DNA of 64,000 bases, taken from positions 1 to 64,000 of the forward strand of contig JAUZRY010000087.1 of assembly GCA_030949995.1 (NCBI GenBank), given 5' to 3'. The stretch is from Ardenticatenia bacterium. GTDB taxonomy: Bacteria; Chloroflexota; Anaerolineae; Ardenticatenales; Ardenticatenaceae. A program made the translations under genes and the position numbers. This document shows, piece after piece, positions 39,246-42,498 of the stretch. A model generated the notes under the pieces. That model ran no database searches. It was not told the DNA's origin and worked only from the letters and a program-made list of their open reading frames with translations. How positions within the stretch are numbered: position 1 is the first letter of the stretch; each line of letters opens with the position of its first letter.

Positions 39246-39683
39246 TTACTTGCCCTTGACTTTGATCTTTTTGGCTTGGGCCTTTTGAGCCTTGGGGAAG
39301 CGCAACGTGAGGATGCCGTCCTCAAAAGCGGCTTCGGCCTTGTCTGCGTTGACATCAGCGGGCAGGGTGAGCTGGCGGTAGAAGCGTCCAACGCGATACT
39401 CCCGCAGATGGTAGGTGGCTTCCTTTTCCTCACGCTCCTCCTGGCGTTCGGCTTTGATCGTCAGGACGCCATTGTGGAATTCGAGGTCCACATCACCGGC
39501 CTTGAACCCTGGCAGAGGGGCCTTCACGACGACTTCCTTGTCCGTTTCGTACATTTCAACAGGCAGGCCAGCATACTCTCCACGAGAAAACCAAGGTCGC
39601 ACGAAGGACTCCTCGAACAGACGGTCCATAGCCTCACGCAGGCTCATCACATCGCGGAACGGGTCCCAGCGGCTGAGGGTCAT
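39246..39683 (-). CDS. Small heat-shock protein Hsp20
   Basis: A 145-residue ATP-independent holdase. ATG 39683 has the near-perfect site AAGGAGGTGA; the ATG 14 codons earlier has none. N-terminal WDPFRDVMSLREAMDRLFEE, then the alpha-crystallin domain with PVEMYETDKEVVVKAPLPGF, GDVDLEFHNGVLTIKAERQ, GRFYRQLTLP and AAFEDGILTLRFPKA. The tail KAQAKKIKVKG lacks a clear I-x-I anchor before it. It shares strand and probable regulation with the CbpM/MerR-like gene upstream, and ends at a strong terminator. Confidence 0.92.
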   Translation of the reverse strand: MTLSRWDPFRDVMSLREAMDRLFEESFVRPWFSRGEYAGLPVEMYETDKEVVVKAPLPGFKAGDVDLEFHNGVLTIKAERQEEREEKEATYHLREYRVGRFYRQLTLPADVNADKAEAAFEDGILTLRFPKAQKAQAKKIKVKGK

Positions 39684-39747
39684 TGATCTCACCTCCTTAG
39701 TCTGCATTTCAGGTTCCACTCCCATCTTTCATTAGGGCCGGGAGGTG

Positions 39748-39791
39748 TTAGAAAGGCGCTAAAGGAGCACTAGAAGGCCATTAGAAGGAGA
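39748..39791. repeat. Four 11-bp phased repeats upstream of hsp20
   Basis: Units start at 39748, 39759, 39770 and 39781, consensus YTARAAGGNSN on the plus strand (CCTTCTAR on the coding strand). The near edge is 64 bases from the hsp20 start. The last unit overlaps the stop codon of the regulator gene. One unit per helical turn puts all on one DNA face. Confidence 0.6.
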
Positions 39792-40128
39792 AGTCTTCCT
39801 CGTCAGGAAGGCTGAGCAGGCGGTACACACGGCGTTGTTTGGCTTGATAATAGGCCTCCAGCGAATCCATCTCGGCGCGCAGCACGTCGAGCTCCTGCTG
39901 CAAGGCGATGACTTGCCGGCGCAAACGGAGAGCGACCACCACGCCAGCACGATTGAGCCCTAAGGAGAAGAGGCGCCGCGCTCGGCGTAGTTCCCGGAGC
40001 TGCTCTGAGGAAATCTTGCCCTCATAGACTGGCCCGATAACCGCCTCTTCAACGAGGGCCATCACGAGGCGCACGGGTAGACTGGCCAAGTGCGCCGCTT
40101 CCTCGAGGGAATACCAACGGCTGCTCAT
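39781..40128 (-). CDS. CbpM/MerR-like chaperone-associated regulator
   Basis: A 115-residue protein. The N-terminal winged-helix-like part (YSLEEAAHLASLPVRLVMALVEE) corresponds to the MerR/CbpM helix-turn-helix. RRARRLFSLGLNRAGVVVAL matches the CbpM dimer helix, followed by a coiled coil (LQQELDVLRAEMDSLEAYY) and an acidic tail. CbpM inhibits and modulates the DnaJ-like CbpA; MerR types such as HspR control heat-shock genes. With hsp20 directly downstream and repeat arrays in front of both, a DNA-binding role is favoured. The ATG has AGGAG seven bases upstream. Confidence 0.7.
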   Translation of the reverse strand: MSSRWYSLEEAAHLASLPVRLVMALVEEAVIGPVYEGKISSEQLRELRRARRLFSLGLNRAGVVVALRLRRQVIALQQELDVLRAEMDSLEAYYQAKQRRVYRLLSLPDEEDFSF

Positions 40129-40200
40129 GAAGATACTCCTGCGAACTAGGTTTCACTTTCTGCGTTGGGGAGCATCTGCATCCAGTGTGCAGGTGGGACA

Positions 40201-40244
40201 TTAGAGGCGTGCTATACGCACATTAGAAGCGCGTTAGAAGGGCT
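40201..40244. repeat. Four 11-bp phased repeats upstream of the CbpM/MerR-like gene
   Basis: Units start at 40201, 40212, 40223 and 40234, each YTA-led; two match TTAGAAG exactly. The near edge is 72 bases from the regulator start, similar to the array-to-hsp20 distance, suggesting one protein acts at both places. Confidence 0.6.
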
Positions 40245-40265: not shown

Positions 40266-40466
40266 TTAGTGACGGCGTTCGAGATATGCCTGCACAGCTC
40301 CCATCATGCCGAACCACAGCCCGGCCACTGAACTCCCGTAGGCGAGGAAACTCAGGAAGAAAGAAGCGGGCAAGAGCTTGATGACCATGAGGAATGGTAA
40401 CACCGCTCCTATGAGGGCCAAGACGAATCCCAGTGCGATCAGGCGTTTCCAGCTTATGAATTCCAT
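40266..40466 (-). CDS. Small two-helix membrane protein, unknown
   Basis: 66 residues: RLIALGFVLALIGAVLPFLMVI, a short loop, then SFFLSFLAYGSSVAGLWFGMMG and a basic tail. AGGAGG lies about 11 bases upstream of the ATG. No family is recognised, but the pattern (two helices, basic ends) and the ribosome site support a real gene. It lies between the peptide-transporter operon end and the regulator. Confidence 0.6.
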   Translation of the reverse strand: MEFISWKRLIALGFVLALIGAVLPFLMVIKLLPASFFLSFLAYGSSVAGLWFGMMGAVQAYLERRH

Positions 40467-41648: not shown

Positions 41649-42498
41649 TCACCTCTGAGCAAGATAGCCCAGCCACGCAATGAGCAGGGCTAATACGGTA
41701 AACCCGAGACTGATCACGCGGAGCAGCACGTCCAATCGCCGGTCCACCGCCTCGAAGTGCTTGTCCACCTCCTGAAAGAGGGCCTCAAAGCGTTGATCCA
41801 CCGCCTCGAAGCGCTTGTCCACCTCCCGAAAGAGGGCCTCAAAGCGTTGGTCCACCGCCTCGAAGCGCTTGTCCATCTCCCGAAAGAGGGTCTCAAAGCG
41901 TTGGTCCCGCCGCCTCGAAGCGCTTGTCCATCTCCCGAAAGAGGGCCTCAAAGCGTTGATCCGCCGCCTCGAAGCGCTTGTCCATCTCCCGAAAGAGGGC
42001 CTCAAGGCGTTGATCCGCCGCCTCGAAGCGCTTGTCCACCTCCCGAAAGAGGGCCTCAAAGCGTTGGTCCACCGCCTCGAAGCGCTTGTCCACCTCCCGA
42101 AAGAGGGCCTCAAAGCGTTGGTCCACCGCCTCGAAGCGCTTGTCCATCTCCCGAAAGAGGGCCTCAAAGCGTTGGTCCACCGCCTCGAAGCGCTTGTCCA
42201 TCTCCCGAAAGAGGGCCTCAAAGCGTTGGTCCGCCGCCTCGAAGCGCTTGTCCACCACCTTGAAGTGATGTTCAACGATTTCGAGTCGTTCTTGGTTCCG
42301 CTTGTCATAATGTTCGAGCAAGCGGAACATGTCTTCGCGCAACGTCTTCAGTTCTTCTTCGACGTGGAGCAATCGGTCTACCAAGACCATCTGATGGGCC
42401 TGCTGCTCGTACTTGCGGGCAAACTCAACCAGCAACTGTTCAACAATGGCCCGTACTTGGTTTTCCTGTTCAGGGGTGAACGTTGTCTCCGAACTCAT
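41649..42498 (-). CDS. Coiled-coil repeat protein with C-terminal membrane tail, one frameshift
   Basis: About 282 residues after correction. N-terminal 50 residues are helical (QENQVRAIVEQLLVEFARKYEQQ). Then nine near-identical 18-residue units (DQRFEALFREMDKRFEAV) form a long amphipathic coil. The chain ends in a single helix (VISLGFTVLALLIAWLGYLA), giving a tail-anchored topology with the coil probably in the cytoplasm. One extra C in plus-strand CCC at 41906-41908 shifts the frame; removal gives 283 codons. It lies between the two ATPase genes of operon 1 on the same strand. No family function is known. Confidence 0.7.
41748..42257. repeat. 54-bp tandem repeat, nine full units plus a partial
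   Basis: Unit begins CGCCTCGAAGCGCTTGTCCA and is highly conserved between copies. Because 54 is divisible by three, loss or gain of whole units keeps the reading frame. Several frames stay open through the array, which explains overlapping ORFs here. Confidence 0.9.

Follow-up and report, generated by a model that had tools for sequence, protein, structure and literature searches.

Two arrays of direct repeats at the hsp20 locus

Two genes lying next to one another on the reverse strand of the window, by which we mean the whole 64 kb stretch of DNA analysed, encode a small heat-shock protein and a CbpM/HspR-like protein, and each is preceded by a tandem array of short direct repeats. The features of this locus are as follows:

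39246..39683, reverse strand: hsp20, encoding a small heat-shock protein of 145 aa (PF00011, E value 1.1e-20), with the ribosome binding site AAGGAGGTGAG; target of array A
39731..39736, reverse strand: putative -10 sequence CCTAAT of the hsp20 promoter, a weak match 11 bases past the last repeat
39748..39791, reverse strand: array A, four 11 bp direct repeats upstream of hsp20 (model E value 5.7e-8)
39781..40128, reverse strand: CbpM/HspR-like protein of 115 aa, with a degenerate MerR-type helix-turn-helix and a C-terminal coiled coil
40184..40189, reverse strand: putative -10 sequence CACACT of the CbpM/HspR-like gene's promoter, a weak match 11 bases past the last repeat
40201..40244, reverse strand: array B, four 11 bp direct repeats upstream of the CbpM/HspR-like gene (model E value 1.1e-6)

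A sequence-only reading of this DNA had described two arrays of four units, each of exactly 11 bases, situated 64 and 72 bases upstream of the starts of hsp20 (39683) and the CbpM/HspR-like gene (40128) respectively, and both the arrays (39748-39791 and 40201-40244) and these distances were confirmed. On the forward strand, the units of array A are TTAGAAAGGCG, CTAAAGGAGCA, CTAGAAGGCCA and TTAGAAGGAGA (TTCTAAT, TTCTAGT, TTTAGC and TTCTAAC on the gene strand), with the distal unit overlapping the 3' end of the CbpM/HspR-like open reading frame (ORF), and those of array B are TTAGAGGCGTG, CTATACGCACA, TTAGAAGCGCG and TTAGAAGGGCT (TTCTAAC, TTCTAAT, GTATAGC and CTCTAAT on the gene strand). The weak unit in both is the second, corresponding to the third in the orientation of the genes. 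The consensus YTARAAGGNSN, as originally proposed, proved to be over-specified: the core YTAGA(A) is constrained, but the GGNSN tail is not conserved. Read on the gene strand this core is TTCTAAY, and the unit is TTCTAAY-N4, present in four copies at 11 bp intervals, which bears out the suggestion of one unit per helical turn in both arrays.

The arrays are real and lie far beyond chance expectation. When scored with a matrix trained solely on 28 arrays from other families, A and B reached 42.9 and 30.7 respectively, against a best score of 8.4 among 12 first-order shuffles of the window, and overlapping registers of the two arrays excepted, no score above zero was found in the rest of the 64 kb. 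Weak matches to pairs of units, with two mismatches, found elsewhere in the same genome were rejected as noise, because a reversed control pattern yielded more of them.

Two further features of the window were observed in the vicinity. Just upstream of array B is a 66 aa ORF resembling a membrane protein (40266-40466), which has no match in Pfam, and similar ORFs occupy the same place in both congeners. At 41649-42498, a highly repetitive stretch with a repeated DKRFEAVDQRFEALFRE motif is spanned by two ORFs that overlap in different frames, and probably encodes a coiled-coil protein.

Distribution of the arrays and their target genes

A search of related genomes, set as a check on the operator reading, found arrays upstream of the hsp20 and CbpM/HspR-like genes in both congeners, with units and spacing conserved and spacers diverged. 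In one congener a 342-codon gene separates the two genes, each of which retains its own array. Across the genome containing the window, a search model built from the sequences of ten arrays detected seven sites, six of which were in the training set, such that independent support comes from other families. Besides the two in the window, these sites precede two hsp20 genes on contig 107, one heading an hsp20-groES-groEL cluster; a further two, on contig 78, are found in the gap between dnaJ and dnaK and at an ECF-sigma/baeRF-family gene pair; and the last, on contig 14, accompanies a small DUF2630-like gene and is conserved in both congeners.

Among 60 relatives, with the genome containing the window counted as one of them, the model matched at an E value of 1 or below in 34. 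The genes downstream of these arrays include hsp20, dnaK, groES, clpB, lon, htpG, grpE, htrA and those for M50 and YugP-type metalloproteases, among others, and most of the array loci retrieved have a chaperone or protease gene downstream, with a minority having no identifiable target. This conservation upstream of heat-shock genes supports the proposal, already made for the window, that the arrays act as heat-shock operators.

Several of these loci have individual features. The contig 78 array (L027:4872-6989) precedes an ECF-sigma-like gene followed by one for a zinc-finger/baeRF family 10 release-factor protein, and adjoins dnaK; homologs of this release-factor protein come after an HspR-like gene in other genomes. 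In genome G008 (L079), a run of approximately six units has an unusual target: the gene downstream encodes a 918 aa protein whose GEAGAGKT motif is NTPase-like. A pair of dnaK paralogs is present in many relatives, the first adjacent to hrcA and the second elsewhere; where arrays were found, the second carries them (L362-L391).

Promoter geometry

When 94 distinct arrays were aligned at their last unit, a -10 hexamer could be recognised in 71, and in 54 of these it begins at position +11 after that unit; the base frequencies were 80% T at +11, 86% A at +12 and 76% T at +16. Judged from alignments only, no -35 consensus is seen, the array alone occupying the -35 place. In the two congeners, CACACT or CATTAT is present near the same place as the -10 of the CbpM/HspR-like gene. 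The arrays combine two features of OmpR/PhoB-type sites: tandem direct repeats with an 11 bp period, and a fixed distance to the -10 with the repeats replacing the -35. As far as can be told from sequence, OmpR/PhoB-type class II activators have sites laid out in this way.

The CbpM/HspR-like protein

It had been proposed that the protein encoded at 39781-40128 binds both arrays and controls itself and hsp20; such binding would be in the manner of BldC or HspR. The adjacency of the genes and the array at the protein's own promoter, found in all three congeners, are in keeping with this, as are the positions of its homologs in dnaK-grpE-dnaJ operons, the context typical of HspR, and the precedent of the MerR-like protein BldC, which binds direct repeats cooperatively and head to tail (PMC5859096). 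By profile comparison, the protein is a distant relative of MerR_2, CbpM and HspR, scoring 27.5 bits against Pfam MerR_2 (cut-off 29) and 18.4 bits against the HspR equivalog, below the cut-off of 105. However, the HPQTLRRYE recognition helix and wing kept by HspR relatives are degenerate and lost in this protein, and its family and the arrays occur independently of each other: 15 of the 60 genomes have both, 15 only the array, 15 only the protein and 15 neither, meaning that many array-bearing genomes lack the family altogether. The fixed spacing to the -10 would, furthermore, be unnecessary for a repressor. BldC itself recognises the unit AATTNNNNC rather than TTCTAAY, in variable repeat number and at other genes, and is a wHTH protein with no coiled coil, whereas the window protein has a C-terminal coiled-coil-like region; membership of the BldC family was rejected on these grounds. 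The claim that this small protein binds both arrays was therefore not supported, and we regard it as improbable.

The gene is instead best read as probably a further target of the arrays, and its product as probably a chaperone modulator. Relatives of the protein are encoded after dnaJ in dnaK operons, and CbpM is known to bind a J-domain, with an evolutionary link to transcriptional regulators having been proposed (PMC4063869).

HrcA and HspR operators

Arrays A and B had been described as unlike the known heat-shock operators CIRCE and HAIR, and this was borne out, as they are direct repeats of a different sequence. Neither the CIRCE inverted repeat nor that of HAIR (CTTGAGT-N7-ACTCAAG) is present at A or B, and across 29 regions upstream of dnaK from relatives the best HAIR-like site differed at 3 to 6 of its 14 positions. 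The HspR/HAIR and HrcA/CIRCE systems likewise control dnaK, groESL, clpB and hsp20, but do so through inverted-repeat repressor operators.

That HrcA might bind the arrays as a derived form of CIRCE seems very improbable indeed. HrcA is found in 53 of the 60 relatives, and single stretches like CTAGCACTC are similar to half of a CIRCE site; yet the array repeats are direct rather than inverted, an array-bearing genome that is 92% complete (G018) has no HrcA match, and the genome containing the window has separate, near-perfect CIRCE sites, one of which is beside hrcA. These sites (C103:20092, C106:10004 and C16:1391) mean that an HrcA/CIRCE branch coexists with the arrays. Over the 60 genomes, neither HrcA nor the HspR/window-protein family is associated with arrays.

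A candidate response regulator

The neighbourhoods of the arrays led to one OmpR-family response regulator. Its gene directly precedes an array and dnaK in two genomes of different families (G034 and G027), is near hsp20 and dnaK in a genome of a third family (G048) and is near an array in another (G042). Orthologs share at least 62% identity and are cleanly separated from the next paralogs, at no more than 55%. They were identified in 47 of the 60 relatives if fragments at contig edges in G015 and G032 are included; the G015 fragment, part of the DNA-binding domain, resolved an apparent exception. The protein is KdpE/RpaB-like, although its score of 203.8 bits against the KdpE equivalog is below the cut-off of 325, and it also falls below the RpaB, MtrA and PhoB equivalog cut-offs. 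Many copies of the gene follow one for a GAF-PAS-HisKA kinase, in which Pfam searches found no transmembrane or extracellular sensor domain. A putative histidine kinase beside the regulator in G048 was discarded, being a repeat-rich, secreted-looking protein.

Genomes were considered to have arrays if they had a model match with an E value of 0.065 or below, a cut-off chosen post hoc, or if a phased array at dnaK was significant. The candidate regulator is present in 39 of the 42 genomes so defined, and the three exceptions are 73-86% complete. One of these is the assembly containing the window (86% complete), in which the regulator was not found; both congeners have it. Among genomes at least 90% complete, the regulator is found in all 33 with arrays, and arrays in none of the six lacking the regulator (Fisher p value of 2.8e-4, ignoring kinship); over all 60 genomes the corresponding p value, again ignoring kinship, is 1.0e-4. 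Similarly, of 20 regulator-positive genomes in which the model had no match, 12 carry phased arrays of divergent sequence upstream of dnaK (p value of 0.01 or below), against none of eight regulator-negative genomes. The units of these arrays include TCTTAY, in G007 and G045, and TCTGAT, in G025, where several copies of the changed unit at 11 bp are found upstream of dnaK (L388). Other periods score lower than 11 bp at most regulator-positive dnaK promoters, and in eight regulator-positive genomes no array reached significance at the locations examined.

The tight spacing to the -10, together with this co-occurrence, points to an OmpR/PhoB-family response regulator encoded elsewhere in the genome as the binder, and we infer that the KdpE-like candidate fits this role better than the window protein. 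It is also possible, though unlikely, that another regulator uses the array, whether a different OmpR-family paralog or some other direct-repeat binder, in which case the operator reading would stand. These genomes contain many Trans_reg_C proteins, and the assembly containing the window is without the named ortholog. Two sister genomes, G004 and G005, encode a different OmpR-family regulator next to hsp20, but this was rejected as a paralog not common to other array genomes. Against any such substitute is the presence of the named ortholog in every array genome at least 90% complete, and the absence of arrays from equally complete genomes lacking it.

KdpE binds TTTATA-N5-TTTACA, with R193, R200 and T215 important for binding (PMC3264566), and the matching residues appear, by eye, to be kept in orthologs of the candidate regulator. 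Within the motif LY[IV]xYLR, residue x is T or N in most genomes, where operators are TCTAAY. Six genomes have A there, and in the majority of these the fourth base of the unit differs from that of TCTAAY: it is A in 11 of 26 units in the x=A genomes, compared to 234 of 247 for x=T. Such covariation between a recognition residue and its operator, from T/N with TCTAAY to A with TCTTAY, is suggestive only, since the array searches favoured TCTAAY and the residue change represents essentially one clade plus one outlier on the tree.

Proposed mechanism and comparison with known systems

Arrays A and B are probably operators of a heat-shock and protein-quality regulon extending across the class Anaerolineae, which, together with a KdpE-like activator, forms part of the best explanation of these observations. 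The 11 bp operator architecture is already known; what appears to be new is that the heat-shock regulon of an entire class should use it. As to how it operates, we lean towards a system in which the main chaperone and protease genes of the Anaerolineae would be switched on by a soluble GAF-PAS kinase and a KdpE-like regulator acting on the four-unit TTCTAAY box, presumably in response to heat. This regulator, of the OmpR/PhoB family and often paired with a GAF-PAS histidine kinase, would occupy the four units on a single face of the DNA, head to tail, and act as a class II activator that recruits RNA polymerase, in the way of PhoB at its pho boxes. HrcA and CIRCE would form a separate repressor branch running beside the activator, and the CbpM/HspR-like protein would be made as a member of the regulon and might modulate DnaJ or provide feedback.

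Pho boxes consist of direct repeats in tandem, each of 11 nucleotides with approximately seven conserved and four loose, to which the protein binds head to tail (PMC4415409). The PhoB/PhoP boxes resemble the arrays in this arrangement and in their location in the -35 region, but here the unit is TTCTAAY, four units are the norm, and the targets are chaperone and protease genes instead of those for phosphate. The operator of kdpFABC shares the 11 bp period and the TT opening each half-site, and the candidate resembles KdpE and RpaB in sequence; unlike the kdpFABC operator, the arrays have four units and different targets, and the kinase is a soluble-looking GAF-PAS protein instead of KdpD. CpxR is an OmpR-family regulator of htrA-type and membrane proteases, acting through direct repeats in envelope stress, whereas the genes preceded by arrays also include the cytosolic dnaK, groESL, clpB, htpG and hsp20. 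In Myxococcus, the response regulator MXAN_4468 likewise acts on chaperonin genes, but is a receiver-only protein controlling groELs partly through HrcA as a negative factor (PMC9040617).

If this mechanism is correct, a heat-shock regulon would be under positive, phosphorylation-based control instead of that of repressors or an alternative sigma factor, adding a phosphorylation-controlled activator to the ways of running a cytosolic chaperone regulon. Heat-shock control in the Chloroflexota is almost unstudied: a full-text literature search combining Chloroflexi with HrcA and CIRCE surfaced only a single study, of Myxococcus, and one combining Anaerolineae with heat shock and response regulators found nothing. 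A large environmental class would thereby gain a testable heat-shock circuit, complete with an operator, a promoter geometry, a regulon and a candidate regulator, and the TTCTAAY box would help to annotate stress promoters in genomes of uncultured organisms.

Arrays outside the Anaerolineae

A collection-wide pattern scan favours AT-rich genomes and so yields names but no distribution. The array also occurs in bacteria of other groups. Among the matches listed, a four-unit, 11 bp TCTAAY array precedes look-alike P-type ATPase genes in Bacteroidales (L110, L137, L140, L144, L204, L208, L209, L215 and L223), three of which were confirmed as magnesium-translocating, suggesting that an OmpR-family magnesium regulator may act there. 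The listed matches also include mgtC preceded by such an array and, in Firmicutes bacterium ZCTH02-B6 (L113), a TCTAAC array at a distance of 47 bp from the downstream pstS, where the unit is used in the manner of a pho box. As pstS and mgtA, both preceded by the array outside the class, are typical targets of response regulators, these instances fit a general role of the array as an operator for such regulators.
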